Source: Marinibacterium anthonyi (GTDB lineage Bacteria > Pseudomonadota > Alphaproteobacteria > Rhodobacterales > Rhodobacteraceae). From it: DNA of 64,000 nucleotides. Both the position numbers and the translations under genes were made by a program. This document shows, piece by piece, positions 2,490-18,948 of the stretch. The notes below the pieces were generated by a model. The model was not told the origin of the DNA. It saw only the letters and a list, made by a program, of their open reading frames with translations, and did no database searches. The stretch spans positions 62,001 to 126,000 of the forward strand of contig CP031588.1 of NCBI GenBank assembly GCA_003217735.2, given 5' to 3'. How positions within the stretch are numbered: position 1 is the stretch's first letter; each line of letters begins with the position of its first letter.

Positions 2490-3500
2490 TCAGATCTGGC
2501 GTCCTTCCACCGGATGGTGCGGATCGACCGGTCCGAGGCTGGACCCCTTGCCGGGCGATACCAGGGTGTCGAGGAATGCCTCATCCTCGGCGGAATAGGC
2601 GCAATCGAGCGCGGCCAGACCGTCTTGCCACTGGGCCATCGTGCGCGGCCCGACCAGAGTGCTGGTCACGTAGCGATTGCGCATGACCCACGCCTGGGCC
2701 AGATGCGCGGGGCTGCGGCCCGTTTCTTCGGCATAGCCGGCCAGTTTGGCCGCGATTTCAAGGCTTTCCGGCCGCCATTCCGCCTCAAGCATGCGCGGAT
2801 CGGCACGCCCGGCGCGGCTGGCCGGATCGACCTCTGCCCCGGGGCGATACTTGCCCGTCAGGATGCCACGGGCCAGGGGGCTGTAACATACTGTTCCAAC
2901 TCCGAAATGACGGGCCGCGGGCAGGATCTCTACCTCGACCTCGCGGTTGACGAGGTTGTAGAGTGGCTGATTTGCCACCGGTGGGACGATCCCGGCATCG
3001 CGCGCCAGGCGCACGGTTTCGGCCAAGCGCCAGGCCTTGAAATTGGACACCGCAAAATAGCCGATCTTGCCCTCGCGGATCAGGTCGGCGAAGGCCAGCA
3101 CCATTTCCTCGAGCGGCGCATCGAAATCCGCCTTGTGCATGTAGACGATGTCGATGAAATCCGTCCCCAGCCGCCGGAGCGAACCGTGCACCGCTTCGCG
3201 GATCCACTTGCGCGACATGCCCGCCTGGTTGGGGCCGCTGCCCATGGGATTGCCGCATTTGGTCGCCAGCACCCAGTGATCACGGTCCCCGGCGATGGCG
3301 CGACCGACCACGGCTTCGCTTTCGCCGTCATTGTACATGTCGGCGGTGTCGATGAAGTTCACGCCCGCGTCCCGCGCGGCATGGATGATGCGGGCGGAGG
3401 TTGGCTCGTCGGTGGCTCCGCCGAACATCATCGTGCCCAGGCAGAGCGGCGACACCTTCAGGCCGCTGGACCCCAGATACCTGTATTCCATGGATGTCAC
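2490..3500 (-). CDS. Aldo/keto reductase
   Basis: 336 residues, a complete (beta/alpha)8 NAD(P)H-dependent carbonyl reductase. The catalytic tetrad is present: Asp51 and Tyr56 in DTADMYNDG, Lys81 in ATKCG, His122 in YMHKAD. The C-terminal cofactor region reads VTSTLVGPRTMAQ. It is the last gene of a leftward run, three bases after the RidA gene, so it is probably co-transcribed with the BMP-type importer and the Rut-like genes and would reduce an aldehyde or ketone from that pathway. In the E. coli rut pathway the aldehyde product is reduced by an unrelated reductase (RutE/YdfG), so a comparable role here is possible but inferred. An alternative start at the fourth codon (MEYRYLG) is also plausible. 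Confidence 0.9.
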   Translation of the reverse strand: MTSMEYRYLGSSGLKVSPLCLGTMMFGGATDEPTSARIIHAARDAGVNFIDTADMYNDGESEAVVGRAIAGDRDHWVLATKCGNPMGSGPNQAGMSRKWIREAVHGSLRRLGTDFIDIVYMHKADFDAPLEEMVLAFADLIREGKIGYFAVSNFKAWRLAETVRLARDAGIVPPVANQPLYNLVNREVEVEILPAARHFGVGTVCYSPLARGILTGKYRPGAEVDPASRAGRADPRMLEAEWRPESLEIAAKLAGYAEETGRSPAHLAQAWVMRNRYVTSTLVGPRTMAQWQDGLAALDCAYSAEDEAFLDTLVSPGKGSSLGPVDPHHPVEGRQI

Positions 3501-3502
3501 TT

Positions 3503-3904
3503 TCAGGCCGGGATGACCGCGGTGGCGGCAATCTCGACAAGGAATTCCTCGCGCACCATGTCGGCCTTGAGGCAGAAGCGGGCGGGCAGGAGATCGGGGA
3601 AGTAGGTGACGTAGATCTCGTTGAAGGCGTGGTAGTCGTCCATGGTCTTGAGGAAGATCTGATTGAAGGTCACGTCCTGCATGCCGCTGCCTGCGGCCTC
3701 CAGCACGACCTTGATGCTGTCAAGCACGCGACGGGTCTGGACCTCGATGTCGCCGACGCCGACGAGGCTGCCGTCAGCGGGATCGGTGGACAGCATGCCC
3801 GCGACGTAGACGTGCTGGCCGGACTTGATGCCCCAGTTCAGGTGGTTGAGGCCGGTGGCCGTCTTGCCGATCACCCAGCCTTCGGGGTTGATTGCCTGGT
3901 TCAT
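3503..3904 (-). CDS. RidA/YjgF/Rut C-type family protein (second copy)
   Basis: 133 residues, the usual RidA length. Typical features are HVYVAGMLSTDP near residue 30, the TRRVLDSIKVVLEAAG helix, and the C-terminal pocket strand ARFCLKADMVREEFLVEIAATA that carries the acidic residue binding substrate or water. Members deaminate reactive enamines/imines or aminoacrylates; RutC belongs here. It lies between the BMP-importer permease and the aldo/keto reductase in one leftward operon that already has another RidA (8506-8904). In place of the canonical Arg of the IPGRAA... type core it has PARFC, so the deaminase activity of true RidA cannot be assumed. Confidence 0.9.
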   Translation of the reverse strand: MNQAINPEGWVIGKTATGLNHLNWGIKSGQHVYVAGMLSTDPADGSLVGVGDIEVQTRRVLDSIKVVLEAAGSGMQDVTFNQIFLKTMDDYHAFNEIYVTYFPDLLPARFCLKADMVREEFLVEIAATAVIPA

Positions 3905-3932
3905 GTCGTTCTCCTTTGGTGTCTTGAGGAAA

Positions 3933-4874
3933 TCACTGCGCGGAGCCGCGCAGGAAAGGTTTGCCGAGATCTCCCGGCGCGGTGCCCGCGCGGCCCATCA
4001 CCACCCAGGCGATCAGTGCCACGACGAAGGGGGCCGCCATCAGCAGGGGCGTCGGTATGCCAAGCCCGAAGTACTGGCCCTGGAACTGCAGCGCTTCCAT
4101 CAGGCCCAGGACAAAGCCGACAAGCAGCACGCCCAGGGGACGCCAGCGCGCAAAGATCGCGATGGCGATGGCAAGGTAGCCCCGGCCCGCGGTCATGTTG
4201 TCCACGAACGTGCCACCCGAGGCGACGATGCAGAGATAGGCGCCGCCCAGTCCCGCCATCAATCCGGTGACGGCCGCCGCCCAGAAACGGACCTGCAATA
4301 CCGGCACGCCGGCGCTGTCGGCGGCGGCCGCGCTTTCGCCGGTGGCGCGCAGAACCAGTCCGATCCGCGTGAAGCGCAGGAGCCACCAGAACAGGACCGC
4401 GACAAGGACCGTCAGATAGAACACGGGACTTTGCAGGAAGAAGGCGCGCCCCAGAACGGGAATGTCCGCCAATCCCGGTATCTCCATCCGGGTGACCGGG
4501 CGCAGGGACGGCAGCGGGCCACCGTCGACAAGCGCAAGCTGCCGGATCAGGGAACTGACCCCGAGTGCCGCGAGGTTGAAGCCGATGCCCATGACGATTT
4601 GATTGGCGCGCGCCAGGACCGTTCCCAGGGCCAGGACCATGGCCGCCACCAGCCCGCCGGCGGCACCGATCGCCAGCGCGCCAACCGGAGACCCGGTCCG
4701 CGCCAGTCCTACGGCCGAGGCGACCGCGCCGAACAGCATGATCCCTTCCAGCCCGATGGTGAAGACGCCGGCGCGTTCGGACAGCGTTTCGCCCAGGGCG
4801 GCCAGGACCACCGGCACGGCAAGCCGCACGCCGGCTGCCAGAAACAGGGCGACCGTTATTGCGTCGAATTCCAT
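3933..4874 (-). CDS. ABC transporter permease, BMP/simple-sugar type (second permease)
   Basis: 313 residues from ATG at 4874 (MEFDAITVALFLAAG). This start is preferred because it overlaps the end of the upstream permease by 19 bases, and because the longer open frame beyond it has no similarity. It is a hydrophobic protein of the BPD_transp_2 type (as in YufQ/NupQ), with the conserved GETLSERAGVFTIGLEGIML near the N-terminus and several membrane spans to the C-terminus. It pairs with the permease at 4856-5914 to form the membrane channel of an importer whose binding protein is BMP-type. Such systems carry nucleosides, riboflavin or related heterocycles. Confidence 0.9.
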   Translation of the reverse strand: MEFDAITVALFLAAGVRLAVPVVLAALGETLSERAGVFTIGLEGIMLFGAVASAVGLARTGSPVGALAIGAAGGLVAAMVLALGTVLARANQIVMGIGFNLAALGVSSLIRQLALVDGGPLPSLRPVTRMEIPGLADIPVLGRAFFLQSPVFYLTVLVAVLFWWLLRFTRIGLVLRATGESAAAADSAGVPVLQVRFWAAAVTGLMAGLGGAYLCIVASGGTFVDNMTAGRGYLAIAIAIFARWRPLGVLLVGFVLGLMEALQFQGQYFGLGIPTPLLMAAPFVVALIAWVVMGRAGTAPGDLGKPFLRGSAQ

Positions 4875-5914
4875 ACCGGCCTCCCCTTCAGAAGATAGAT
4901 GCCACTGACCACGGCGAGGATCACGATCGGCAGGCCGCTCAGGATCTCGGCAAGGGCAGCAGGGATCGACAGGGTGCTTTGCAGCGCCAGCGCGGCGCTG
5001 TTGATCGCGCCGAAATAGAGGGACACGAGCACGGATCCCAGCGGATCGAGCCCGGCAAGAAAGGCGACCGCCAGGCCTTCGAAGCCGAGACCGGAGGAGA
5101 AGCCGTCGATCAGCCGGTACTGCACGCCCATCACTTCGAACGCGCCGGCCAGCCCGCCGATGGCGCCCGAGATTGCCATGGACGACAGGATCATCCGGCC
5201 CGCCGGCTGACCCTGAAGCCGCACGAAGCGGGGGCTTTGGCCGCTGGCCCGCAGCCGCAGCCCGAAAGCCGTATGCCGCAGCACGAACCAGGTTGCCACC
5301 GCGATCGCCAGCGCCAGAACAACGCCGAGATGCAGGCGTGTTCCCGGCAGAAGAACCGGCAGGATGCCCCCGTCCGGCAACTGTGCGGACATGTTGAAGT
5401 TCGAGCCTTCGGGCCGCATCGGACCCTGCACCAGGTACTTCAGGACGTAGATGGCGATGAAGTTCATAAGCAGGGTCGAGATGATCTCGTCCGCTCCGCG
5501 CCAAAGCTTGAGCAATGCCGGAACGAGCGCCCAGATCGCGCCGCACAGGGCGCCCGAAAGGATCGCCAGCGGCATGAGGGCCGGACCTATATCCCCGAAG
5601 GCGAGGAACGGCAGCATCGCCCCGATCGCGCCCATCTGAAGCTGACCTTCGCCGCCGAGGTTGAACATGCCGCCCCTGATGGCGACCAGCGCGCCAAGCG
5701 CAACCAGAAGCCGGGGCGTCATGAACACCAGCGTGTCGGCCAGTGCCCGCGCGTCGCCGAACGCGCCGTCGAGCGCGACGGGCAGCGCCCGGGACAGGCT
5801 TACGCCGAGGAGCGCGATGATCGCCAGTCCAAGCAGGAGCGATCCGGCGAAGGCGCCAAGCGTGATCTTGACCGCGGGGGGGATAGCAATCCGGGTCACG
5901 GGCGCCGCAGCCAT
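4856..5914 (-). CDS. ABC transporter permease, BMP/simple-sugar type (first permease)
   Basis: 352 residues from ATG 5914. There is a hydrophobic span at about residues 15-40, then the family hallmark VAIRGGMFNLGGEGQLQMGA near residue 80, then further spans. It resembles YufP/NupP permeases of nucleoside importers. It lies 30 bases after the ATPase gene and overlaps the next permease, so translation of the pair is likely coupled. Together with 3933-4874, 5945-7450 and 7456-8421 it makes a complete importer. The position inside a Rut-like gene set suggests a pyrimidine or other N-heterocycle as cargo; this is inference. Confidence 0.9.
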   Translation of the reverse strand: MAAAPVTRIAIPPAVKITLGAFAGSLLLGLAIIALLGVSLSRALPVALDGAFGDARALADTLVFMTPRLLVALGALVAIRGGMFNLGGEGQLQMGAIGAMLPFLAFGDIGPALMPLAILSGALCGAIWALVPALLKLWRGADEIISTLLMNFIAIYVLKYLVQGPMRPEGSNFNMSAQLPDGGILPVLLPGTRLHLGVVLALAIAVATWFVLRHTAFGLRLRASGQSPRFVRLQGQPAGRMILSSMAISGAIGGLAGAFEVMGVQYRLIDGFSSGLGFEGLAVAFLAGLDPLGSVLVSLYFGAINSAALALQSTLSIPAALAEILSGLPIVILAVVSGIYLLKGRPVWNSTQ

Positions 5915-5944
5915 TCGGTTGCGGACAATACCGGGTTCACGGGG

Positions 5945-7450
5945 TCAGACATGGGCGGCCTCCTTGTGGTTGCGTGTCATGAGCGGGCCGATCCGATCGA
6001 CTGTCATCTCCGGACCGCGCAGCTCTCCGGTCATTCGCCCGGCATTCAGCACCACGACGCGGTCCGAAATGCGGATCAACTCTTCGATGTTGGACGAGAT
6101 CACCACCACGGTCGTGCCCGCGTCGGCGGCCTCGGCGAGGCGATGCAGAACCGCCTCGGCGGCGGCGACATCAAGGCCGCGGGTCGGCTGATAGGCCACC
6201 AGAACCGCCGCATCTTCGGCCAGTGCGCGGGCCAGCACGATTTTCTGCTGATTGCCCCCCGACAAGGACCGCGCCGACGCGCCGGCGGACTGGGTCCGGA
6301 TGTCAGCGGCTGCGATCATGGTCTCGGCGGTCGCGGCGATGCGGCCGTGATCCAGCAGACCATGCCGGGTCAGCGTGCCATCCATGATCCGCCCGTAAAG
6401 CAGGTTGTGCGCGACCGGGAGATCCAGCGACAGCCCCTCGTGATGGCGGTCCTGTGGCACCAGCGCCACGGCGTCGTCCGGCAGCGAAAGCGTGCCCGCG
6501 TCCGGCCGGATTTGTCGTGAGAGCAGGTCGAAAATCTCGCTCTGGCCATTGCCCTCGACCCCCGCGATCCCCGTGACCTCCCCCGCGTTGAGGGTGAGCG
6601 TCAACTGGTCCAGTCCCGGCGCGCCATGCGAGGGTGCCACGCGCACCCCGTCGAACCTGACCCGTGCGGGCCCGGCCAAGCGCACGGCGCCGATGCGCGT
6701 GCCTGCCTCGATCCCACGCCCGACAATCCGTTCGACCAGAGCCGAGGACGTGGTTTCCGCGATCAGCCCGGTGCCATTGGTGCGCCCCCGCCGCAGGACC
6801 GTATAGCGATCCGCGTTGGCCATGACCTCGTCGACATTGTGGGTCACGACCGCGACGGCCGTGCCGCGATCGCGGATCCGGCGCAGCGTGTCATAAAGCG
6901 CGACAATCTCCGCCGGGGTCAGGATGGTGGACGGTTCGTCCAACAAAAGCACACGGCTGTCATTGACCAGCGCCTTCAGGATCTCGACCCTTTGCTGAAG
7001 CGCAAGCGGCAGCCGTCCGACCACCGCCTCGGGATCGAGGTCGATGCCGTAGCCCTGCATGAAGGCGCGCACGTCGCGGGCACGGCGGAACAGGGCGCGG
7101 CGCGACCGCCGCGCGACCAGCGCCAGGTTCTCGGCAACCGTGAAGGCGGTCACCAGCTTGAAATGCTGGTGCACCATGCCGATCCCGTTGGCGATCGCGT
7201 CCGCGGGGCGCAGGTGGCGCACCTCGCGGCCGTTCATCAGCACGCCGCCCTCGCTTGGTTCATGGACCCCGTAGAGAATGTTCATCAGGGTCGATTTGCC
7301 CGCGCCATTCTCGCCCAGAAGGGCGTGGATCTCGCCCGCCTGAAAGGCGAGCGAGACACGGTCGAGGGCCAGGAAGCCGTTCGGATAGCGCTTTGACACA
7401 TGGTCGAGCGTGATGGTCGCCGAACGGTCCGGAGAGAGGGCAGCGGCCAT
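5945..7450 (-). CDS. ABC transporter ATPase with two nucleotide-binding domains, sugar/nucleoside type
   Basis: 501 residues with tandem ATPase domains as in RbsA/NupO. The first domain has Walker A GENGAGKST near residue 45, MVHQHF Q-loop and LLLDEPSTILTP. The second has the degenerate Walker A GVEGNGQSE near residue 295 and the signature LSGGNQQK near residue 395. It is the motor of the BMP-type importer, six bases downstream of the binding-protein stop and on the same strand. In this family the second site is commonly impaired for hydrolysis, and the degenerate Walker A fits that. Confidence 0.93.
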   Translation of the reverse strand: MAAALSPDRSATITLDHVSKRYPNGFLALDRVSLAFQAGEIHALLGENGAGKSTLMNILYGVHEPSEGGVLMNGREVRHLRPADAIANGIGMVHQHFKLVTAFTVAENLALVARRSRRALFRRARDVRAFMQGYGIDLDPEAVVGRLPLALQQRVEILKALVNDSRVLLLDEPSTILTPAEIVALYDTLRRIRDRGTAVAVVTHNVDEVMANADRYTVLRRGRTNGTGLIAETTSSALVERIVGRGIEAGTRIGAVRLAGPARVRFDGVRVAPSHGAPGLDQLTLTLNAGEVTGIAGVEGNGQSEIFDLLSRQIRPDAGTLSLPDDAVALVPQDRHHEGLSLDLPVAHNLLYGRIMDGTLTRHGLLDHGRIAATAETMIAAADIRTQSAGASARSLSGGNQQKIVLARALAEDAAVLVAYQPTRGLDVAAAEAVLHRLAEAADAGTTVVVISSNIEELIRISDRVVVLNAGRMTGELRGPEMTVDRIGPLMTRNHKEAAHV

Positions 7451-7455
7451 GGCGC

Positions 7456-8421
7456 TTACTCTGCGTAGAGGTTGATCTTGCCGGCTTTCAGGTCTTCGAT
7501 GACCTGGAAAACGGTCTCTTCGACGGACGGATCGACATGGGCAAAGGGCCGGGCCAGCGTCCAGCCGTCGGAGGCGAGGTTTTCCGTCACGATGGTGTCC
7601 CCGAGTTCGCCGGCCGCATAGGCTTTGCCGATGTCGGCATAGGACTTGTCGAAATTCATGATCGTCGAGGTCATGACCGCGTTGGGATAGTCGGCCGACT
7701 GGTCGGCGTAGGAGCCAATGGTCAGCGCACCTTCCTCGTCCGCCGCCTGCTGGATGCCCGCGTCGGCGGTGTCTGCCGAGGGGATGACGAAGTCCGCGCC
7801 GCGGGCGATGATGCCGGTCGCGATTTCACGGGCGCGCGCGACATCGGTAAAGGATCCGACATAGGCGGTGTCGACCTGAACATCGGGGTTCACATAGACC
7901 GCACCTTTCTGGATGAACTCTATCGTGCGTTCGGCCGAGGGGATTTCTTCGCCGGCGATGACGGCGATGTGACCTGCCTTGCTGGCAGACGCCGCCAATG
8001 CGCCCAGGATGAAGCCATATTCATCCCAGTCCACGGACCATGCCGAGTAGTTGGCGATGCCGTCGGTCGACCCTTCGTAGGAGTAGAGAACGAATTGCGT
8101 GTCGGGAAAATCGGGCGCGACTTCCTTCATCGCGGCGGAATAGCCCGAAGAATGCGCGATGATCAGGTTCACCCCGTCGGACGCCAGCTGGCGCAGGGCG
8201 GCCGGGGCGGCTTCGTAAGAGGTGTGTTCCAGGTAGCTGGCCTGAAGCCCCTGTTCCTTTGCCATGGCGGCAAAACCGGCGTAGCCGGCCGGATCCCAGG
8301 CACCTTGGGTCACCGTCTGGGTGAAAAGCCCCGCGGTCCGCGCACCGTCCTGTGCAAGTGCCGCTCCGGAGGAGAGGGCAAGCGCCGCCGCGGCGGCAAT
8401 CGGTAGAAATCGAGAATTCAT
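7456..8421 (-). CDS. BMP-family periplasmic binding protein (PnrA/NupN-like)
   Basis: 321 residues. The signal peptide MNSRFLPIAAAAALALSSGA ends AALAQ near residue 24. The mature protein has the BMP hallmarks: LIIAHSSGYSAAMKEVAPDFPDTQFVLYS, an EYGFILGALAASASKAG segment, and the ADFVIPSADTADAGIQQAA region lining the ligand site. Known ligands of this family are purine and pyrimidine nucleosides and riboflavin. It heads the four importer genes and follows the RidA gene by 84 bases. With RutA/RutC/RutD-like genes just upstream in the same direction, a pyrimidine-like ligand is likely but unproven. Confidence 0.92.
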   Translation of the reverse strand: MNSRFLPIAAAAALALSSGAALAQDGARTAGLFTQTVTQGAWDPAGYAGFAAMAKEQGLQASYLEHTSYEAAPAALRQLASDGVNLIIAHSSGYSAAMKEVAPDFPDTQFVLYSYEGSTDGIANYSAWSVDWDEYGFILGALAASASKAGHIAVIAGEEIPSAERTIEFIQKGAVYVNPDVQVDTAYVGSFTDVARAREIATGIIARGADFVIPSADTADAGIQQAADEEGALTIGSYADQSADYPNAVMTSTIMNFDKSYADIGKAYAAGELGDTIVTENLASDGWTLARPFAHVDPSVEETVFQVIEDLKAGKINLYAE

Positions 8422-8505: not shown

Positions 8506-8904
8506 TCAGGCCTCCGGAATTACAAGGATGGCGTCGATTTCCGCGAGCAGGTCGGCTTCGGCCAGGCCGGCCACCATCACGAAGGTGCTGGCCGGAAGAT
8601 CGTAACCTTCGAAAAAGGCTGCCCGGGCGCGATGCAGCGCGGGGATTGCATCGCGGGACAGGGCGTAGGTCGTGATCTTCACGACGGCCTCGGGGCCCAC
8701 GCCCAGCCCTTTCAACGCCAGGCCGATATTGTGCCAGATCTGGCGGGCCTGTGCGTCGATGTCACCGACGCCGACAATGGCGCCGGTTTCGTCCCATGCC
8801 GTCTGACCGGTCAGGAACACGGGTGTGCCCGAACGGATCACGGCATGGTTGTAATAGTCCTGCTGCTTGATGCCCGCCGGATTGTAGGGGCCGGACATCG
8901 ACAT
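8506..8904 (-). CDS. RidA/RutC-like family protein (first copy)
   Basis: 132 residues with GTPVFLTGQTAWDETGAIVGVGD near residue 25 and the C-terminal STFVMVAGLAEADLLAEIDAILVIPEA. It directly follows the RutA-like monooxygenase gene (stop and start share base 8904). In E. coli rut, RutC sits beside RutA and RutD and handles the aminoacrylate released by ring cleavage, so this is the positional RutC counterpart. The strongly conserved Arg of catalytic RidA (usually ...PGR...) appears as PASTFV here, so it may be a non-deaminating subgroup that uses another mechanism. Confidence 0.88.
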   Translation of the reverse strand: MSMSGPYNPAGIKQQDYYNHAVIRSGTPVFLTGQTAWDETGAIVGVGDIDAQARQIWHNIGLALKGLGVGPEAVVKITTYALSRDAIPALHRARAAFFEGYDLPASTFVMVAGLAEADLLAEIDAILVIPEA

Positions 8905-10022
8905 CAGGCGTTTTCCTTCTGATGCGCGCGCGCGTTGGTGGCGACGCCGCAGGCCTCGAGCACTTCGACCACCTCGGTCCCCACCGTGCGCAGGTCGTCA
9001 ATGAATTCGGGAACGATCACCGTCACACCGTCGAGCTTGGCGCCCTTGACGATATGCGCCAGCTTGCGCCCGATCGTCTCGGGGCTGCCCACCAGTGCGG
9101 CACGGGTCATCGAGTTGCGGCTTTCCCCCTGGCTGACGAAACGCTGCGCCATCGTGTTCTGGTTGAAGCTGCGGTCGCCGGAGTATTCGCGGGTCTGGTT
9201 GTCCAGCGCGATGGTGTCCACGCCGCTGTCGTAAAGGGCCACGCGCTCCTGCGCCTCGGCATCCGTGGCGCCGGGCACGATGGTGAACAGGCCGTAGGTC
9301 TTGAAATCCGGCTTGCCTTCGCGCGCGGCCAGTTCCTTTGCCCGCAACCCGGTCTTGATGAAATCGTCATGGTCCGACCCCAACATGAAGGAGCCGGTGC
9401 AGTTCTTCATGGTGAACAGGAAGCCGCGGTCCGAGGCGCCGGCGCAAATGATCGGCGGCTGTGTCTTCGGCTTGGGGTTCGACATGCAGTCGATCAGCTC
9501 GTAATGCTTGCCCTTGTGGTCCACGCGCTCCTCGGTCCAGAGCCGCTTGAGCACGGTGAGCCATTCCTCGGCCAGATCGTAGCGTTCGCCGTGGTCGAGG
9601 TCCTGCCAGAGCCCCATCTGCCCCTGGTCGCTGGGGTTCGATCCGGAAACGATGTTGAGGCCGAAGCGCCCGCCCGAGATCTGATCCAGCACCGCGGACA
9701 TCTTGGCCACGACCGCCGGGTGGAAGACCATGGTGTGGACCGTTCCCCACACGCCGATGCGGCTGGTCGCCTCGGCGAGGCCGGCCATGGTGGTCATGCT
9801 TTCAAGCGTGAAGTCCCAGTGTCGCGAAGGGCCGCCATAGCCGCGCCACTTCGCCATTGAGAGCGCGAAGTCGAAGCCGAGGTCTTCGGCAAGAAGGGTC
9901 ACTTGCTTGTTGTAGTCGTAGGTCGCAGCCAGTTGGGGACTGGTCGTCGACGTGATCCAGCCACCGTTGCCGACGGGCAGGAAGACACCGAGTTCGACAG
10001 GTTTCGCGTTTCGGTCAAGCAT
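8904..10022 (-). CDS. Flavin-dependent monooxygenase, luciferase-like, RutA-like
   Basis: 372 residues, close to the ~380 of RutA. The N-terminus GVFLPVGNGGWITSTTSPQL, then FDFALSMAKWRGYGG, WDFTLESMTTMAGLAEATS, ISGGRFGLNIVSGSN and PPIICAGASDRG follow the RutA pattern along its length. RutA uses FMN peroxide to open the uracil ring at the N3-C4 amide. Here the equivalent substrate is unknown. The gene lies 21 bases after a RutD-like hydrolase and before a RidA protein, reproducing the RutA-C-D module in a different order. Because the set shares operator-like sites with a thiamin-pyrimidine salvage cluster, I suspect a substituted pyrimidine rather than uracil. A reduced flavin must come from elsewhere, as no RutF-like reductase is present. 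Confidence 0.87.
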   Translation of the reverse strand: MLDRNAKPVELGVFLPVGNGGWITSTTSPQLAATYDYNKQVTLLAEDLGFDFALSMAKWRGYGGPSRHWDFTLESMTTMAGLAEATSRIGVWGTVHTMVFHPAVVAKMSAVLDQISGGRFGLNIVSGSNPSDQGQMGLWQDLDHGERYDLAEEWLTVLKRLWTEERVDHKGKHYELIDCMSNPKPKTQPPIICAGASDRGFLFTMKNCTGSFMLGSDHDDFIKTGLRAKELAAREGKPDFKTYGLFTIVPGATDAEAQERVALYDSGVDTIALDNQTREYSGDRSFNQNTMAQRFVSQGESRNSMTRAALVGSPETIGRKLAHIVKGAKLDGVTVIVPEFIDDLRTVGTEVVEVLEACGVATNARAHQKENA

Positions 10023-10043
10023 GAGGTTCTCCTATGCGGGCAA

Positions 10044-10871: not shown

Positions 10872-10979
10872 TGAACTGGCTCGTCTTGAAGTGCGGTGCA
10901 CCGGGCAAATCACCTTGCCCGGCACACGCATCTAAGCCCGGTCACCGCCGCCTGCATAAACGAGGCTCGGGACCGGCGC

Positions 10980-10996
10980 GTTGCCAAATTGGCAAC
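10980..10996. promoter_or_regulatory. LysR-type operator GTTGCC-N5-GGCAAC in front of the Rut-like operon
   Basis: The sequence GTTGCCAAATTGGCAAC is a perfect dyad around one central base and contains the T-N11-A LysR box (TGCC-N5-GGCA). It lies between the end of the LysR gene (11009) and the start of the RutD-like gene (10871). The same GTTGCC-N5-GGCAAC motif recurs at 16289-16305, and weaker forms are at 12004-12020 and 16186-16202, each 84-109 bases from a start codon. The obvious candidate binder is the LysR protein encoded at 11009-11920. Confidence 0.72.
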
Positions 10997-11008
10997 AGCA
11001 CTCTTTGG

Positions 11009-12020: not shown

Positions 12021-12168
12021 GCGCAGGCGTGTCTTTTCGACTGTGAGACGCCGTTTCGCGCGGCTTAGTCTGGAATATGGGCAGAACGCCCACCGGCGGA
12101 GACGCCGACACAAGGGTCCCGCCAAAGCATCCGTGGATGCGGGACACCGGAGATCGAGGAACTGCATT

Positions 12169-12804
12169 GTGCTGAGGCTCCGCCAGACTCGCTTCAGGGC
12201 CCCGTCGGCCACCGGCCTACCCGGCGCCATCCGCCGTCTGCGCCAGGCGGAGCCGGTCCTGATCGAAGACCAGCATCGCCAGTTCTGGATGGTATTGCCC
12301 GCGGCCTTTGCCACGGAACACATGCTGGCGCATATTCGACGCGATGCGGGTGGGCTGATGTGCCTTGCGCTTGACCGTTCCTCGTATGCCGCACTTGGAC
12401 TGCCCGACAGGCAGGACGCACACGCCGCCGGACCGGATATCGAAATGGGCTGTGCGGTCGGTCGTGATATGGCGCCGCAGGAGCAGGTGCGCGAAGTCCT
12501 TGACGCCCTTCACAACCGGGCTCCACTCTCGCCGCCAGAGGATAGCGCCAAGGGATTGCCGACCATGATCGCCGACGACGGGCTGATGCTTGGGCGTGCC
12601 GGGATCGCGGAGCGCTGCATCGCGCTGCTTTCCGCCGCGGGTCTTCCGCCGCAGGCATTGATGTGCGCGGTGCTCGATTCCGCCGGGCGAATGCACCTTG
12701 GCGCTGAAAGCATCAAGGGCACACCGCTCGCGCGGTATGCCCTTCTGACACTTGCGGATCAGCACGGCCTCAAGGGCGGGGCTGGTGGAGCCAATCGTCG
12801 ATGA
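12169..12804 (+). CDS. RibB-like protein (DHBP synthase fold) lacking the catalytic motif
   Basis: 211 residues from GTG 12169, chosen because GAGGA at 12156-12160 sits eight bases before it; the longer upstream frame is Arg-rich and unlike any family. Length and pattern follow 3,4-dihydroxy-2-butanone-4-phosphate synthase: ATEHMLAHIRRDAGGLMCLAL and LGLP align with RibB, as do GLMLGRAGIAERCIALLSAAG and ALMCAVLDSAGRM. The acidic loop DDEDRENEGD of RibB reads IEDQHRQFWM here, the GGHTEA histidine-threonine is replaced by AGIAER, and the acidic residue after LC is lost. It is therefore probably not a DHBP synthase but a repurposed or regulatory relative. It is divergent from lysR and overlaps the end of the M20 gene by 35 bases on the opposite strand. 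Confidence 0.68.
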   Translation: MLRLRQTRFRAPSATGLPGAIRRLRQAEPVLIEDQHRQFWMVLPAAFATEHMLAHIRRDAGGLMCLALDRSSYAALGLPDRQDAHAAGPDIEMGCAVGRDMAPQEQVREVLDALHNRAPLSPPEDSAKGLPTMIADDGLMLGRAGIAERCIALLSAAGLPPQALMCAVLDSAGRMHLGAESIKGTPLARYALLTLADQHGLKGGAGGANRR

Positions 12805-14062
12805 AGCGCACCATGACCTTGGTGAAGTCGACAAGCTGCGCGATCTCGACGCTTTCGTTGACGGAATGCGCTTGCGCAAGCGTTCCGGGGCCGTAGACCA
12901 CCGCCGGGATGCCGGCATGGCCGAACCAGCCGCCGTCGCAGACTGAAGGAGACATCCCGAAAATGGCGGGCGCGCTCAGGGTCCGCTCGTGGCTTTCGGC
13001 CAACAGGCGAATCCCCGGGTGGTCCCGGTCCAGATCCAGCGCCGGGAAGATTTCGCCCCGGTCCACGATCATCGAGGTTCCGCCCCACTCGAAGCGCAGC
13101 GGGTTCTCCCGCAGCCAGGGATCGGCGGCGGCAACCGCGTTCAGATGGCTCTCGATTTCGGCGATGATGGCCTCGTGGGTCTCGTTGGGCAGGAAATGCA
13201 CCGTGACCCAAAGCCGGCATTCGTCGGCGATGAACGCCGCATGGCGCCCGCCCTCGATCACTGCCGGGTTGATGGTGTTCACGCCCGGGCGCATGCCAGC
13301 GCAGGACTTTGTCACCGCCCAGTGCCGTTCCAGGTCCTGAAGACCCGCGATCACCTTCATCATCTTCTCGATCGCGCTGGCCCCATGCACGCCGCCGCCG
13401 GCGTGGATCATGCGGGACCTTTCGCCGTCGTGGTGTGTCTTTTCGGACTTCACCGTGATCCAGCCCGTGATCACACCGCCTTGGCCCTGCAAATGCATGT
13501 CGGAGGTATCGACCACCACCGCGAGGTCGCCGCTGTAGCCGCGCTCGCAGCATTGCAGGGTGCCGGCCTCGCCGACTTCTTCGCCGATCACCGATTGCAC
13601 GATCAGATCGCCGGGCAGATCGCGGCCGGCCTCGCGCAGCAACTTGATGGCGAAGAGCACGCAGGCGATGCCGCCCTTCATGTCCGCCGTGCCGCGCCCG
13701 AACAGCCGTCCGTCGCGTACGAAAGGCTCGAACGGCCCGGTGATCCATGGCTCGTCGGCATGCACCTCGGCCACGTCCATATGGCCGTTCAGGATAAGAC
13801 TGCGGTGGGTGTCGGAGGCCGATCCGCGCAGCACGCCCACGACGTTCGGATCCCCCGGGTAGACATCCCAGCGGTCGGTTTCGAAACCGAGACCGTCGAG
13901 CAGCGCCTGAACGTAGTCCTGCGCGGCGCCCGTGTTGCGCGCGGGCGGGGCCGGAGTCTCGAAGCGGACGAGGTCGGAAAGCAGCGCCACCAGTTCATCG
14001 CCGCGGTCGTCGACCGCGGCGATGAGGTCGGTGATCGGATCGGTCGAAAGATCGGTCATCAC
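12770..14062 (-). CDS. M20-family amidohydrolase/deacylase, YlmB-like
   Basis: 430 residues, an ArgE/DapE-type dinuclear zinc peptidase-fold enzyme. Metal and catalytic residues are in place: His94 and Asp96 in NGHMDV, Asp127 in GRGTADMKGG, and the Glu pair 161-162 in IGEEVGEAG; a late HS in AQAHSVNESV completes the set. YlmB, which removes the formyl group from N-formyl-4-amino-5-aminomethyl-2-methylpyrimidine, is of this family and size and is typically linked to tenA and thiXYZ, exactly the neighbours here. The start shares four bases with the end of the TenA gene. The YlmB assignment rests on context; other N-acyl substrates are possible. Confidence 0.85.
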   Translation of the reverse strand: MMTDLSTDPITDLIAAVDDRGDELVALLSDLVRFETPAPPARNTGAAQDYVQALLDGLGFETDRWDVYPGDPNVVGVLRGSASDTHRSLILNGHMDVAEVHADEPWITGPFEPFVRDGRLFGRGTADMKGGIACVLFAIKLLREAGRDLPGDLIVQSVIGEEVGEAGTLQCCERGYSGDLAVVVDTSDMHLQGQGGVITGWITVKSEKTHHDGERSRMIHAGGGVHGASAIEKMMKVIAGLQDLERHWAVTKSCAGMRPGVNTINPAVIEGGRHAAFIADECRLWVTVHFLPNETHEAIIAEIESHLNAVAAADPWLRENPLRFEWGGTSMIVDRGEIFPALDLDRDHPGIRLLAESHERTLSAPAIFGMSPSVCDGGWFGHAGIPAVVYGPGTLAQAHSVNESVEIAQLVDFTKVMVRFIDDWLHQPRP

Positions 14063-14763
14063 GCGGCCGCCGCCTGACCGGCCTGGTTCAGACCCATCTG
14101 CCAGAAGTCGCTTTCAAGTCGGGTGGCGGTGTCGAAGATCTTCTGTAGCTGCGGCAGGCGAGTCTCGGCGCCATAGCGCTGGCCGACACTGTCGAACTTC
14201 TCCAGCGCCAGTTGGACCGACGCCTTGTATTCGGGGCTGTCGTAATTGGCGATCCAGGTCGCATAGGGGTTGGCCGTGCTGCTTGCCTCCGGCATGGCCA
14301 GCAGCCGCGCGCCCACCTCGGCATAACCCGCGACGCAGGGCATCAGCGCCGTCAGCAGGTCCAGCAGGTCACCCTGCATGCCGGTATCCATCACGAACCG
14401 CGTATAGGTCATGGTTTCCGCGGCCTCCTCTTCGGCCTCCATCATCTCTTCGCTGATGCCCCAGCCGGCGCAATAGCCGACGTGCAAGGGCAATTCGTCG
14501 AGAATGCCCTGCAGCCCGGCGGCGCAGGCGCGGATGTCGGCAACCGTGGTCGATTTGGCAACCGACAGCCCGTAGGCGCGCGAGAAGTGCTTCAGGAACA
14601 GGTAGTCCTGGGTAAGGAACCGGCGGAAGGCCGGCTTGGGCAGGCTGCCATTTCCGACGCCCCGTACAAAGGCATGATCGACGTAGCTTTCCCAGATCGG
14701 TCCCGAGGTATCGCGAAGCTTGCCAAACAGCCCCTGGGTGAAATCGACAGACCCGGTCATCAT
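14059..14763 (-). CDS. tenA: TenA-family aminopyrimidine aminohydrolase (thiaminase II)
   Basis: 234 residues, the all-helical TenA fold. Key residues visible are Asp53 in TQDYLFL, Tyr120 in MTYTRF, and the catalytic Cys143 in MPCVAGYAEVG. TenA converts 4-amino-5-aminomethyl-2-methylpyrimidine to the hydroxymethyl form (HMP) for thiamin salvage, the step after YlmB. The gene overlaps both neighbours by ATGA-type junctions, so the amidohydrolase, TenA and M20 genes are one leftward, translationally coupled unit. The start could be either of two adjacent ATGs at 14763 or 14760. No TPP riboswitch precedes the unit, and the LysR-type dyads suggest substrate induction rather than thiamin repression. 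Confidence 0.9.
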   Translation of the reverse strand: MMTGSVDFTQGLFGKLRDTSGPIWESYVDHAFVRGVGNGSLPKPAFRRFLTQDYLFLKHFSRAYGLSVAKSTTVADIRACAAGLQGILDELPLHVGYCAGWGISEEMMEAEEEAAETMTYTRFVMDTGMQGDLLDLLTALMPCVAGYAEVGARLLAMPEASSTANPYATWIANYDSPEYKASVQLALEKFDSVGQRYGAETRLPQLQKIFDTATRLESDFWQMGLNQAGQAAAA

Positions 14764-16088
14764 GCCATCTCCCGACGAACGACGACCATCTTTTCCTGCA
14801 TCCTCCGGAAGGCGGCATTGGCTTTTTCGACGATTTCCTGCTCGTTGGCGCGGGTCAGCACCCGGCCCTGCATGACCACGTCTCCGTTGATGATCGTCGT
14901 GTCGACGACACTGGAATTCGACGCAAAGACGAGGTGGCTCATCATGTGCACGGGCGTTTCGCGCAGCAGCGGCGTGAAGATCGGGTTCTGCGTCTCGATC
15001 AGGATGACGTCGGCCTTCATGCCTGCCTTCAGCATGCCTGTTTCGTGGCCAAGCGCCTTGGCACCATTGTTGGTGGCGCGGCGCAGCACGTCCTCTGCCG
15101 GGGCGATCGAGGCGTCGCCGCGATGCGCGCGGTGCACCAGCGAGGACCATTTCATCACCTCGAACATGTCGGCCGAGTTGTTGCATTCCACCGCATCGTG
15201 CCCAAGGCCCACGTTGATCCCGGCGGCAAGGAACTCGGGCAGGCGGGCCACGCCGTTGCCAAGCTTGGCGTTGGAGTTGGGGTTGTGCGAGATGTGCGTT
15301 CCGGTTTCCGCGATCATGCGGATCTCGTCATCGGACAGGTGGACGCAGTGCGCGGCCACGCAATCCGGCCCGAGGATGCCGGTTTCATAGGCCAGTTCGG
15401 TCGGACGGCGCCCGAATTGCTTGAGCGAGAATTCAACCTCGGTCTTCGACTCGTTGAGGTGGATGTGCATGCCGGTCCCAAGGTCGTTGGCCAGCGCGCG
15501 CGCATCCCGCAGCAGTTCGGGCGAGGACAGGGGCACCCATTCGATACCGACCCGGACCTCGACCAGACCGTTGCCGCGTCCGTGGTTCTTGTGGAAGGCG
15601 TCCTTGTTGTCCTCCAGCGTGTCGAGCGCGTGCTCTTCCAGCGCCACGTCATTGCACAACACGGCGCGCATGCCGATGTCGCAGGCCGCATCTGCAAGGC
15701 TGTCGAGCTGACGGTACATGTCGTTGACCGTGGTGCAGCCCGTCTTGATCGACTCGGCGTAAGACGCCATGGCGGCCCAATACGCGGCTTCGGGATCCAG
15801 CGCACGCACCAGCGGATACCAGCATTCGTCCAGGTATTCCCACAGCGGCAGGTGGTCGAGATACCCCTTGCCGATCGCGGTGTGGTAATGCAGGTCGATC
15901 AGCCCGGGCATGATGATCTTGTCCGTCGCGTCGATGACCTTGTCACCGGGGCGGCTTTCGATCGGCGTGCCTCCGGCGACAATCTGGGTGATGCGGTCGT
16001 TCTCGATGATGACGCTGCCCACCTCGTGGTAGGTGTTGGCATCGTCCAGCGTGAGGACCATCCCGTTCTTCAGGATCAGGCGCGACAT
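14760..16088 (-). CDS. Amidohydrolase-superfamily deaminase/chlorohydrolase type (AtzA/SsnA/TrzN-like)
   Basis: 442 residues from ATG 16088, preceded by AGAGGA at a good distance; the open frame extends upstream without similarity. It is a TIM-barrel metal hydrolase: HYH at residues 67-69 (LIDLHYHTA), a His in IHLNES, a His in AAHCVHL and an Asp in GLGHDAVECNN. Members of this branch remove amino or chloro groups from triazines, guanine, cytosine and adenosine derivatives. As the lead gene of the unit with TenA and the M20 enzyme it could deaminate the 4-amino group of the pyrimidine to give an oxo-pyrimidine, a substrate type that a RutA-like enzyme could open. That order of reactions is inference. 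Confidence 0.86.
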   Translation of the reverse strand: MSRLILKNGMVLTLDDANTYHEVGSVIIENDRITQIVAGGTPIESRPGDKVIDATDKIIMPGLIDLHYHTAIGKGYLDHLPLWEYLDECWYPLVRALDPEAAYWAAMASYAESIKTGCTTVNDMYRQLDSLADAACDIGMRAVLCNDVALEEHALDTLEDNKDAFHKNHGRGNGLVEVRVGIEWVPLSSPELLRDARALANDLGTGMHIHLNESKTEVEFSLKQFGRRPTELAYETGILGPDCVAAHCVHLSDDEIRMIAETGTHISHNPNSNAKLGNGVARLPEFLAAGINVGLGHDAVECNNSADMFEVMKWSSLVHRAHRGDASIAPAEDVLRRATNNGAKALGHETGMLKAGMKADVILIETQNPIFTPLLRETPVHMMSHLVFASNSSVVDTTIINGDVVMQGRVLTRANEQEIVEKANAAFRRMQEKMVVVRREMA

Positions 16089-16288: not shown

Positions 16289-16305
16289 GTTGCCATTGCG
16301 GCAAC
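16289..16305. promoter_or_regulatory. LysR-type operator GTTGCC-N5-GGCAAC in front of the ThiZXY-like operon
   Basis: GTTGCCATTGCGGCAAC has perfect six-base arms and the same five-base spacing as the site at 10980-10996. It ends 100 bases before the ATPase start (16405). The remainder of 16089-16404 carries no gene and no TPP-riboswitch signature. Confidence 0.72.
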
Positions 16306-16404: not shown

Positions 16405-17190
16405 ATGACCGCCCTGCACAGGATGGAGCCCCCGCCCGAAAACGCCGCGCAACCTGACCGGGCCGGGACCCTTGGCATCTCGGTCCGCGATCTGGCGCTG
16501 CGCTACGGTCAGAACACCATCTTCGAAGGGCTCTCGTTCGATATCGAGCCGGGGCACTTCGTCGCGCTGCTGGGATCGAGCGGCGTGGGCAAGACCTCCC
16601 TGCTGAAGATCATCGCGGGGCTGGAGACCGCGGCCGCCGGGTCCGTGGTGGCCAGCGATGGCGGCCAGGTTGCCAGCCGGATCGCCTACATGGGACAGCA
16701 GGACCTGCTCTATCCCTGGCTCACGGTCCGCCAGAATGTCACCCTGGGGGCCCGGTTGCGCGGCGAAAAGCCCGATCTCGACCGGGCAGATCACCTGTTG
16801 GAGCGGGTCGGTCTTGGCAAACACGCCAGAGCCCTGCCGATGATGCTTTCGGGAGGGATGCGCCAGCGCGCAGCCATCGCCCGCACCCTTTACGAGCAGC
16901 GCCCCTTCGTCCTGATGGATGAACCCTTTTCCGCGCTGGATGCCATCACCCGCGCCACGATGCAGGAACTGGCCGCCGAACTTCTGGTGGGCCGCACCGT
17001 CCTGCTGATCACCCACGATCCGCTGGAGGCCTGCCGGCTCGGCGACCGCTTGCTGGTACTCTCAGGCTCTCCGGCGAAACTCGACCCGCCGATGGTGATC
17101 CCCGGCGCAATCCCCCGCGCCTCCGACAACCCGGACGTGATGCACGCGCAGGCCATGTTGCTGCGCCGTTTCCAGGAGCTGCAGGAATGA
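16405..17190 (+). CDS. ABC transporter ATPase, ThiZ-like
   Basis: 261 residues from ATG 16405, with GGAGA five bases before it; the 20 codons open upstream are not family-like. Walker A GSSGVGKT is at residues 57-64, the signature is LSGGMRQR and Walker B FVLMDEPFSALD, followed by ITHDPLEA. It is the SsuB/TauB/ThiZ type that pairs with a single permease and an NMT1-type binding protein. The stop overlaps the permease start (ATGA at 17187). With the downstream genes and the opposite TenA unit it fits the importer for N-formyl-aminopyrimidine, a thiamin breakdown product. Confidence 0.9.
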   Translation: MTALHRMEPPPENAAQPDRAGTLGISVRDLALRYGQNTIFEGLSFDIEPGHFVALLGSSGVGKTSLLKIIAGLETAAAGSVVASDGGQVASRIAYMGQQDLLYPWLTVRQNVTLGARLRGEKPDLDRADHLLERVGLGKHARALPMMLSGGMRQRAAIARTLYEQRPFVLMDEPFSALDAITRATMQELAAELLVGRTVLLITHDPLEACRLGDRLLVLSGSPAKLDPPMVIPGAIPRASDNPDVMHAQAMLLRRFQELQE

Positions 17191-17954
17191 CCAATCCCTT
17201 CAACGACCCCCGCCTGCGCGGCCTCACCATCTTTTGCGGTCTCATCGCCATCTGGTGGCTCGTCACGCTCACCGGCATTCCGAAGTTCATGCTCCCCAGT
17301 CCCTTTTCGGTCGCCGCGGCCATCTGGGAACAGCGCGCGTCGCTGGCGTATCACACCGGGGTCACGCTGATGGAGATCCTGCTCGGGCTGGGCTTTGGGC
17401 TGCTGTTCGGCGGCGGCCTCGCGCTTGCGATGATCCTGTCGCGCGGGCTGCAATCCTGGGTGATGCCGGTCATCGTGATTTCGCAATCCATCCCGGTCTT
17501 CGCCATGGCTCCGCTGCTGGTGCTGTGGTTCGGATTCGGCATGGCGTCCAAGGTCATAATGGCCGTGCTGATCATCTTCTTCCCGGTGGTGGCGGCCTTT
17601 TTCGACGGGTTGCGCCGGACCGAACGCGGCTGGCTGGACCTTGCCCAGACCATGGGCGCCTCGTCGTGGTCGGAAATGCGCCACGTCCGGCTCGTCGCCG
17701 CTTTGCCCGCTTTCGGTTCGGGCCTGCGTGTCGCGGCGGCCGTCGCGCCGATTGGCGCCGTGATCGGCGAATGGGTCGGTGCCTCGGCCGGGCTGGGCTA
17801 CATCATGCTGAATGCCAACGCGCGGATGCAGACGGACACGGCCTTTGCCGCGCTTTTCATTCTGGCCCTGCTCGCCGTGCTGCTGTGGCAGGTCGTGGAC
17901 CGGCTGCTGAAGCGGGTCCTTTATTGGGTGCCCGACAGCGGCGCGTCCTTCTGA
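17187..17954 (+). CDS. ABC transporter permease, ThiX-like
   Basis: 255 residues with about six membrane spans and the cytoplasmic EAA-type loop (WLDLAQTMGASSWSEMRHV) that docks the ATPase. The N-terminus has the family signature PKFMLPSPFSVAAAIWEQR. It is a BPD_transp_1 permease of the nitrate/taurine/pyrimidine group. It overlaps the ATPase gene by four bases and precedes the binding-protein gene by 43. The cargo is inferred from the ThiY-like partner. Confidence 0.9.
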   Translation: MTNPFNDPRLRGLTIFCGLIAIWWLVTLTGIPKFMLPSPFSVAAAIWEQRASLAYHTGVTLMEILLGLGFGLLFGGGLALAMILSRGLQSWVMPVIVISQSIPVFAMAPLLVLWFGFGMASKVIMAVLIIFFPVVAAFFDGLRRTERGWLDLAQTMGASSWSEMRHVRLVAALPAFGSGLRVAAAVAPIGAVIGEWVGASAGLGYIMLNANARMQTDTAFAALFILALLAVLLWQVVDRLLKRVLYWVPDSGASF

Positions 17955-17997
17955 TTTCCCCACTGACCAATCAAAATCCCCCCAACAGGAGACTTCC

Positions 17998-18948
17998 ATG
18001 AAACTCAACACGACGTTGCGCGCGGCGCTTGCCTCTGCGCTGCTGGTCACTGGTGCGCCGTCTTTCGCCCAGGAGAAGGTGACGGTCCTTCTGGACTGGT
18101 TCATCAATCCCGACCACGCTCCGCTCCTTGTCGCCGAACAGATCGGTGCGTTCGAAAAGCGCGGCCTCGACATCGAGATCGTGCAGCCCTCCGATCCGTC
18201 CATGCCGCCGCGCCTGCTGGGCGCGGGTCAGGGCGACATCGCGATCAGCTACCAGCCGCAGCTTTACATGCTCGCCGAGCAGGAACTGCCTGTCACCCGC
18301 GTCGCCACCCTGGTCGACAGCCCGCTGAACGTACTGGCTTCGATCGAGGGCAAGGGCATCGAAACCATTGCCGACCTCAAGGGAAAGAAGATCGGCTATT
18401 CGGTCTCCGGCGTCGAGGAAGCGACGCTCGCTGCGATGCTGCAATCCGGAGGATTGTCGCTTGATGACGTCGAGATGGTGAACGTGAACTTCCAGCTCGT
18501 GGCCAGCCTGCTTGCCGACCGCGTCGACGCGGTCATCGGGGGCTACCGCAATTTCGAAGCCACGGAAATCCGTCAGCAGGGCTATGAGCCGAAGATGTTC
18601 CTGATCGAAGAACACGGCGTTCCGATGTACGACGAACTGATCGTTCTGGCGCGCAAGGGCGAAGAGAATTCCGAAATGGTGAAGTCCTTCGTCGCCGCGC
18701 TGAAGGAAGGAACCGCGTATCTTCTCGAGCATCCCGATGAAACCTGGGAACAGTTCCGCGTCGACTATCCCGATCTCGACAACGAGCTGAACAAGGTCGC
18801 CTGGAAGGACACCCTGCCGATGTTCGCCACCGATCCCGGCAAGCTCGATACCGACCGCTATCAGGCCTATGGTGACTTTCTCAAGGAACACGACCTGATT
18901 TCCCCGGACGTCGAAATCTTTGACTATGCCGTGGACACATCCGACTGA
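17998..18948 (+). CDS. Periplasmic binding protein, NMT1/THI5-like (ThiY-like)
   Basis: 316 residues. A signal peptide ends near residue 25 (GAPSFAQ). The mature protein starts with VTVLLDWFINPDHAPLLVAE, the signature of THI5/ThiY proteins that bind formyl-aminopyrimidine or HMP, followed by RGLDIEIVQPSDPS and GDIAISYQPQ. An RBS (AGGAG) precedes the ATG. It is the last gene of a rightward unit and is followed by a strong terminator. ThiY fits the TenA and YlmB-like genes encoded divergently; an alternative is a related hydroxypyrimidine ligand. Confidence 0.88.
   Translation: MKLNTTLRAALASALLVTGAPSFAQEKVTVLLDWFINPDHAPLLVAEQIGAFEKRGLDIEIVQPSDPSMPPRLLGAGQGDIAISYQPQLYMLAEQELPVTRVATLVDSPLNVLASIEGKGIETIADLKGKKIGYSVSGVEEATLAAMLQSGGLSLDDVEMVNVNFQLVASLLADRVDAVIGGYRNFEATEIRQQGYEPKMFLIEEHGVPMYDELIVLARKGEENSEMVKSFVAALKEGTAYLLEHPDETWEQFRVDYPDLDNELNKVAWKDTLPMFATDPGKLDTDRYQAYGDFLKEHDLISPDVEIFDYAVDTSD

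Follow-up and report, generated by a model that had tools for sequence, protein, structure and literature searches.

A 64,000-nucleotide stretch of the 6.81-Mb Marinibacterium anthonyi genome (assembly GCA_003217735.2, contig CP031588.1, C4:62001–126000; hereafter the window) carries, between its positions 2490 and 18948, a gene cluster that joins a thiamin-pyrimidine uptake and processing set to a deaminase-type amidohydrolase and a RutA-like flavin monooxygenase. We consider it likely that this cluster encodes a LysR-controlled, probably plasmid-borne pathway by which the cell draws nitrogen, and possibly carbon, from the pyrimidine moiety of vitamin B1 or from products of its breakdown; the substrates, step order, and products we infer by analogy. 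At the level of gene content, the coupling of the uptake and processing set with the deaminase and the RutA-like ring-opener is well supported because it recurs in unrelated genomes, a dyad shared by its units is unique in the genome, no thiamin pyrophosphate (TPP) riboswitch is present, and the functions involved are duplicated elsewhere in the genome. With confidence only a little better than even, we further propose a complete, horizontally spread oxidative catabolism of the B1 pyrimidine, in which a dedicated deaminase would make hydroxymethylpyrimidine (HMP) a RutA-type substrate. Such a pathway would have been assembled at least twice, with different ThiY and TenA lineages in Alphaproteobacteria and Actinobacteria, and a further actinobacterial version would send a branched ring-opened acid through a coenzyme A (CoA)-transferase and a B12-dependent mutase.

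Gene families were assigned with Pfam and NCBIfam profile searches of open reading frames (ORFs), and all of the genes named in an initial annotation of the window were found within the interval (Table 1). The core set, entirely on the minus strand, runs from the LysR regulator through a RutD-like hydrolase and the RutA-like monooxygenase to a first Rid protein, a BMP importer of four genes, another Rid protein, and finally an aldo-keto reductase. The remaining genes are a plus-strand RibB-like gene, a minus-strand amidohydrolase-TenA-M20 set with overlapping ends, and ThiZ-ThiX-ThiY on the plus strand. The earlier list had one Rid protein, and its RutC-like member is indeed present, but there are two; the aldo-keto reductase and the RibB-like gene, which lies between the LysR and M20 genes, are likewise additions. 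The Rut-like labels were right as to family, but the RutA-, RutC-, and RutD-like proteins all score below the equivalog cut-offs. Contig C4 is 178 kb long and has a RepC gene at its start, as do C3, C5, C6, C7, and C12; the cluster is therefore probably plasmid-borne. The RutA-like gene is patchy in distribution, since among 147 related genomes, the window genome included, that genome alone holds a match of more than 38% identity (E 1e-60).

The initial annotation had expected the monooxygenase and thiamin-pyrimidine genes to co-occur elsewhere, and from the amidohydrolase side they do. Orthologs of this enzyme form a set of 16 distinct loci (59–100% identity, window included) spanning Alphaproteobacteria and Actinobacteria with differing gene orders. 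All 16 hold a luciferase-family monooxygenase in the cluster, which in 11 is RutA-like (nine placed by tree, and G1473 and G1434 by 76% and 66% identity, respectively). TenA was seen in 10 loci and an NMT1/ThiY-type protein in 14. The two without a visible NMT1/ThiY-type protein are G1187, on a 9.8-kb contig, and G1434, for which the stretch read covers 15.5 kb of an 18.5-kb contig. The gene is rare. Genome samples searched at strict limits (E 1e-120 or 1e-140) gave orthologs in one of 385 genomes of the window's class (the window itself), three of 299 in the Acidisoma family (one counted already), four of 398 in the Glaciihabitans family (Glaciihabitans among them), and seven of 394 in the class of Glaciihabitans (two counted already). 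Among 13 whole genomes compared, the window genome, Sinirhodobacter populi, Acidisoma silvae, and Glaciihabitans have one. A search of 72,556 plasmid records returned five matches, of which only two Rhizobium plasmids exceeded 60% identity, and both carry the RutA-like gene.

The same parts recur in different arrangements. All of them lie inside about 17 kb in S. populi, and the two Rhizobium plasmids hold the same gene combination in rearranged order, as does another member of the Acidisoma family (G1473). In A. silvae, the RutD-like gene leads ThiY-TenA-ThiZ-ThiX-amidohydrolase-M20 on one strand, in one apparent operon. The order in Glaciihabitans is RidA-RidA-LLM2-amidohydrolase-TenA-LLM, and G576, G831, and G810 each present a single directon, amidohydrolase-ThiY-TenA-ThiX-ThiZ-LLM2. 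In G1434, the amidohydrolase belongs to the monooxygenase directon, with a Rid gene on one side and an ammonium-transporter-family gene on the other. ThiY and TenA of the Actinobacteria fall in clades separate from the alphaproteobacterial ones, whereas the amidohydrolases of Glaciihabitans, G576, G831, and G810 remain at 70–72% identity. On these sequence grounds, the contrast suggests that thi parts were recruited around a conserved deaminase more than once.

The two halves of the cluster also appear to share a regulatory element. As the initial annotation had it, the same operator-like dyad, GTTGCC-N5-GGCAAC, precedes both units, with exact matches at 10980 and 16289. With one mismatch allowed, 0.30 matches are expected, and two were reached in two of 100 shuffles. 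In the whole 6.81-Mb genome, the exact pattern occurs at two places, both in the cluster, and a reversed-pattern control occurs once; the chance that two random places both land in this 16.5-kb stretch is about six in a million. LysR boxes have the form T-N11-A, which the dyad core, TTGC-N7-GCAA, fits, and LysR orthologs are present in the clusters of relatives. Chance adjacency of the genes was considered and ruled out by their recurrence in scrambled order and by the uniqueness of the dyad pair in the genome.

Within the thiamin-pyrimidine module, the closest solved relative of ThiY is the formylaminopyrimidine (FAMP)-binding protein 3ix1 (E 2.8e-42). The M20 hydrolase passes the cut-off of PRK08596, a model that presumably covers the YlmB family, and TenA retains the Cys of its PCV-GY motif, which we take to be the active-site residue. 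The metal and catalytic motifs of the amidohydrolase (HxH, H, E, H, D), assumed here to be the active-site residues of metal-dependent SAH/ATZ-type aminohydrolases, are intact in all 16 loci, and the enzyme was also aligned to 4f0r. A structure model of this protein (mean predicted local distance difference test score, or pLDDT, of 41, with three aligned rows) was set aside. None of thiD, thiE, and thiM was found among the ORFs scanned, in agreement with the initial annotation.

The five best fold matches of the RutA-like protein are RutA entries, and its score falls well under the curated TIGR03612 cut-off (278.9 versus 498.3 bits). In a tree, its group splits from RutA as a clade of its own (support 100/100); the protein is 34–38% identical to the RutA-family proteins compared and 36–37% identical to two of the RutA-family genes in its own genome. 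According to one report, Thr105 and Asn134 of RutA hold O2, and Trp139 borders the substrate side (PMC10005588). The two O2-pocket residues are present in the window protein and in every full-length relative aligned, and the si-side Trp139 is replaced by Ser in the window protein and by Ser or Gly in full-length relatives. Note that the frame-broken pieces L025 and L026 were not fully scorable in this alignment, in which the position of Glu292 is uncertain. These pieces come from Pantoea rodasii and Erwinia sp. S63, where the RutA-like gene is broken across frames (near 10000–11100 of each locus); their first parts are 99% alike, and the break reflects either a sequencing error or a decayed gene. 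A structure model of the window monooxygenase had a mean pLDDT of 77 with weak loops at 17–32, 58–70, and 128–137. Because the last of these is the Trp139-equivalent loop, we avoided conclusions about the pocket. RutA acts on thymine besides uracil, as stated in PMC7662398, so a 5-substituent should be tolerable to its chemistry.

Other members of the core could handle what ring opening releases. The Arg of Rid proteins is needed for enamine deamination, and RidB retains it (PAR motif) in the window and in all 12 orthologs examined; in RidA, Ser replaces this Arg (PAS motif) both in the window and in all 19 related proteins examined from 17 loci. In the Pantoea and Erwinia loci, RidA is separate, downstream, and on the opposite strand. 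Orthologs of the aldo-keto reductase are 72–85% identical and lie in the same cluster where found. The RutD-like hydrolase is under the RutD cut-off (205.6 versus 238.5 bits). The window cluster itself has no flavin-reductase gene; the rest of the genome has ten PF01613 flavin-reductase matches, and 10 of 13 distinct relative loci compared include such a gene, with an eleventh by annotation and Pfam. The scan of the cluster ORFs revealed no RutB, the isochorismatase-family ureidoacrylate hydrolase. Similarity of the BMP parts to a putative vitamin B6 importer in NCBIfam stays under the cut-offs. The BMP importer probably takes up an oxopyrimidine directly.

Table 1. Features of the cluster in the window, with strand and the profile or other evidence for each.
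Feature	Position	Strand	Evidence and remarks
Aldo-keto reductase, candidate for RutE-like aldehyde reduction	2490..3491	-	PF00248, 248 bits; alternative GTG start 3500
RidB, RutC-like Rid protein with deaminase Arg (PAR motif)	3503..3904	-	TIGR03610, 106 bits (cut-off 169)
Importer permease B	3933..4874	-	NF047928, 213.6 bits, below cut-off 465
Importer permease A	4856..5914	-	PF02653
Importer ATPase	5945..7450	-	PF00005, two ABC stretches
BMP substrate-binding protein	7456..8421	-	PF02608, 140 bits
RidA, Rid-family protein with PAS motif	8506..8904	-	PF01042
RutA-like flavin mononucleotide (FMN) monooxygenase, proposed ring opener	8904..10022	-	TIGR03612, 278.9 bits; top fold match RutA 5wan
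RutD-like alpha/beta hydrolase	10044..10871	-	TIGR03611, 205.6 bits
Operator-like dyad GTTGCCAAATTGGCAAC	10980..10996	.	Before hydrolase-monooxygenase unit
LysR regulator	11009..11920	-	PF00126 and PF03466
RibB (dihydroxybutanone phosphate, or DHBP, synthase)-like gene, apparently non-catalytic	12118..12804	+	36 bits over most of length; start provisional
M20 hydrolase, proposed FAMP deformylase	12770..14059	-	NF006370/PRK08596, 721.9 bits (cut-off 412)
TenA, aminopyrimidine aminohydrolase/thiaminase II type	14059..14763	-	PF03070, 152.9 bits
SAH/ATZ-type amidohydrolase, proposed HMP 4-deaminase	14760..16088	-	Metal and catalytic motifs intact; aligned to 4f0r
Operator-like dyad GTTGCCATTGCGGCAAC	16289..16305	.	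Divergent gap between amidohydrolase and ThiZ
ThiZ-like ATPase	16405..17190	+	PF00005
ThiX-like permease	17187..17954	+	PF00528
ThiY-like binding protein (NMT1/THI5)	17998..18948	+	PF09084, 221 bits

From these assignments, the following route can be drawn. FAMP or HMP would be imported, formate would be removed by the M20 enzyme, and TenA would exchange the 5-aminomethyl for a hydroxymethyl group to give HMP and NH3. The amidohydrolase would then exchange the 4-amino group for oxygen; NH3 would leave, and the ring would gain the N3-H/C4=O amide required by RutA chemistry. The RutA-like FMN monooxygenase, served by a flavin reductase in trans, would cut N3–C4. The open-chain amidine/enamine would be degraded and reduced by RidB, the RutD-like hydrolase, and the aldo-keto reductase, the last in the role of RutE; candidates for amidine hydrolysis are RidA with its PAS motif, the M20 enzyme, and the RutD-like hydrolase. 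A RutB would not be called for because the cleaved 2-methyl ring is expected to yield an amidine rather than a ureide. The deaminase would be the logical joint of the scheme, since RutA chemistry would find no amide in the ring without it, and its product could no longer serve thiamin synthesis.

Several observations weigh against this reading, the main ones against a pathway confined to HMP. Our RutA-like-centred set consists of 17 loci at 61–100% identity (13 from one search, three further plasmids from another, and the window; L018 equals L028, L024 was too short to judge, and the Cupriavidus plasmid was covered by a 31-kb stretch plus a plasmid search). The amidohydrolase lies in the cluster at six of the 17, and nine of the 13 whole genomes have no ortholog of it (six without a match at E 1e-40, three with matches of only 30–34%), so the core would serve another substrate or entry route there. 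Pseudomonas, Pantoea, Erwinia, and others carry the core cassette unaccompanied by the thi module; the cassette consists of the LysR, hydrolase, monooxygenase, and Rid genes, the BMP importer, the reductase, and often a flavin reductase. This stand-alone core is the main evidence against an HMP-only pathway. The design looks modular, with an oxopyrimidine core to which a thiamin-pyrimidine entry module was added. The interpretation given in the initial annotation is accordingly supported in part: its coupling of uptake and processing set, deaminase, and RutA-like opener stands, whereas its chemistry and any specificity of the core for HMP are conjectural.

The amidohydrolase side has gaps as well. 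TenA was not seen in six of the 16 loci (stretches read, 9.8 to 20 kb), where it may lie beyond the stretch, several of these stopping at the ThiY/ThiX gene or at the edge of a contig. A PRK08596-like M20 enzyme was seen in only six, all alphaproteobacterial, and the window TenA is narrowly under the curated salvage_TenA cut-off (127.1 versus 130). Five actinobacterial loci carry a distant luciferase-family enzyme (23–26% identical to that of the window where matched) with a CoA-transferase and a B12-type mutase; in the one of these on which Pfam was run, only a GntR gene lies between the amidohydrolase and the monooxygenase. Ring opening may therefore differ in these loci, or the substrate may be broader. 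The Ser at the Trp139 position is also found in the more distant RutA relatives L032 and L033; it thus separates the window protein from RutA and is no mark of the proposed pathway.

The dyad is informative in the window genome alone. Six of 13 genomes searched hold one exact dyad each that lies away from the fetched cluster loci, and in Sinirhodobacter the exact form is absent. A. silvae has one genomic copy, within the LysR/hydrolase gap, and both Rhizobium loci have one each, between LysR and the monooxygenase. Because single copies also occur outside the fetched loci in six genomes, we regard one dyad per genome as background and only the window pair as notable. Looser GTTGC-N7-GCAAC dyads occur in Sinirhodobacter and in a Xanthobacteraceae metagenome-assembled genome. 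A GTTGC-type dyad was not found in the LysR gaps examined in gammaproteobacterial loci, and the gap of Pantoea SOD02 holds a different perfect dyad.

The stand-alone core and the loci without a visible TenA would both be expected if the same architecture served another 4-aminopyrimidine, such as bacimethrin, 5-hydroxymethylcytosine, or a plant aminopyrimidine, with the thiamin pyrimidine as at most one entry. In Cupriavidus, the RutA-like gene is paired with an NMT1 importer, a Rieske oxygenase, and a formaldehyde dehydrogenase, a combination that would fit O- or N-demethylation. We nonetheless judge this alternative unlikely, though it merits attention, since TenA, an M20 enzyme over the PRK08596 cut-off, and a ThiY nearest to an FAMP-binding protein all indicate thiamin breakdown products, and TenA recurs in 10 of 16 loci from two separate lineages.

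That an ordinary thiamin salvage set merely sits beside an unrelated oxopyrimidine catabolic operon with its own LysR would be in keeping with the known salvage combination of ThiXYZ, YlmB, and TenA and with the occurrence of the monooxygenase cassette alone elsewhere. This is very unlikely, however, because the two gene sets are interleaved in operons of other genomes, they share a dyad otherwise absent from the genome, and loss of the 4-amino group to a deaminase would be fatal to salvage. The absence of a TPP riboswitch, claimed at the outset, was upheld, as no Rfam family reaches threshold in positions 1–30000 of the window. Riboswitch control of a salvage set in the cluster was rejected on this result, the two TPP riboswitches of the genome being on other contigs, C3 and C1. 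That on C3 precedes thiD, a DAO-family oxidase gene, thiG, thiE, thiF, thiY, tenA, thiZ, and thiX, so a riboswitch-controlled salvage set already exists in the genome. Of four RutA genes on contig C1, three exceed the curated cut-off and the fourth narrowly misses it, and one C1 RutA gene has RutC- and RutD-like neighbors. A role for the RutA-like gene as the uracil enzyme of the cell was ruled out by these genes. The cluster combines paralogs of the salvage and Rut sets, and neither salvage nor uracil use therefore seems to need it. Away from the RutA gene with RutC- and RutD-like neighbors lies a tandem pair of RutA-family genes scoring 497 and 502 bits (C1:291889–294068, L044).

Two further points against the thiamin-pyrimidine pathway concern solved structures. 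The best solved matches of the amidohydrolase are methylthioadenosine/S-adenosylhomocysteine (MTA/SAH), 8-oxoguanine, and triazine enzymes and unnamed amidohydrolases, none labeled for HMP, and the best match of the BMP protein, 6pi5, is named an atrazine periplasmic binding protein and belongs to a triazine pathway. Catabolism of s-triazines or purines, with these two proteins acting on melamine-, ammeline-, or oxoguanine-like compounds, nevertheless seems extremely improbable, as the matches are distant (148–165 bits for the amidohydrolase and 82 bits for the BMP protein), no cyanuric acid or ureide genes were found among the cluster ORFs scanned, and TenA, M20, and ThiY would be left unexplained. 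The rare, patchy, plasmid-like distribution of the cluster would suit a defensive or competitive role, in which the B1 pyrimidine or antivitamin analogs are destroyed to detoxify them or to starve neighbors, but we give this almost no credence because two importers, the Rid and aldehyde-handling enzymes, and the ammonium-transporter-family gene in the G1434 directon indicate use of the products.

Additional features of these loci were recorded. The window RibB-like gene lacks the acidic RibB motif by eye, adjoins LysR in Sinirhodobacter too, and is possibly a flavin-related sensor or a relic. On the Cupriavidus necator plasmid (L031, 14375–26197), the 61% identical RutA-like gene and NMT1 importer are accompanied by genes for a VanA-type Rieske oxygenase and formaldehyde dehydrogenase and by ribA and ribBA. 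A second actinobacterial cluster type (L068–L072, with L069 incomplete) carries two amidohydrolases, a distant luciferase-family monooxygenase, M20 enzymes, NMT1, a CoA-transferase III, and a methylmalonyl-CoA-mutase-like enzyme, and may represent another aminopyrimidine route. A second TenA adjoins the cluster in three actinobacterial loci, together with a GMC oxidoreductase in two of them and with an Amidohydro_2 enzyme in the other; given these neighbors, the hydroxymethyl group may be oxidized in some versions. The right flank of the window cluster (19458–26305) holds TIM-barrel and FAD_binding_2 (ketosteroid-dehydrogenase-like) genes, another LysR, and TctA/TctC transporter genes, and looks like a separate catabolic cluster.

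A literature search of titles and the beginnings of abstracts, with most subscription journals outside its coverage, gave no HMP catabolism by a RutA-like enzyme among the matches listed; in the accessible parts of this literature, thiamin breakdown products appear as salvage precursors. If the proposed pathway is true, it would provide a sink so far missing from the vitamin B1 cycle in soils and on plant surfaces and extend RutA-type flavin ring opening to a non-nucleobase pyrimidine. It would also explain what a deaminase family and a family of RutA paralogs, neither with an assigned role, do in the cell, and ThiXYZ-TenA genes would not always be readable as salvage.

Four known systems bear comparison with the cluster. 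It resembles the Rut pathway of Escherichia coli (rutABCDEFG) in its RutA-like monooxygenase, RutC-like Rid protein with the Arg, RutD-like hydrolase, and candidate aldehyde reductase, and in the flavin reductases of most relatives compared. It differs in that RutB, RutE, RutF, and RutG were not seen in the cluster, a BMP importer is present instead, the RutA-like protein is below the RutA cut-off with Trp139 changed to Ser, and deaminase and thi genes are coupled to it. Salvage of FAMP by ThiXYZ, YlmB, and TenA in Bacillus was reportedly described by Jenkins and colleagues in 2007, and the cluster shares with it a ThiY nearest to 3ix1, a PRK08596-type M20 enzyme, TenA, ThiX, and ThiZ. Unlike that system, it has LysR instead of a TPP riboswitch, lacks thiD, thiE, and thiM, and is joined to a deaminase and to ring openers, by which HMP would be destroyed. 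The riboflavin lyase RcaE is likewise an FMN enzyme of the luciferase fold whose substrate is a vitamin (fold match 5w48), but it is 18–20% identical and ranks below RutA, and that substrate, riboflavin, is not a pyrimidine amide. Finally, vitamin B6 (pyridoxine) catabolism proceeds by import, side-group processing, and oxidative opening of the vitamin ring. The proposed pathway would follow the same scheme, and its BMP parts resemble the putative B6 importer, but the ring and the ring-opening enzyme are different.

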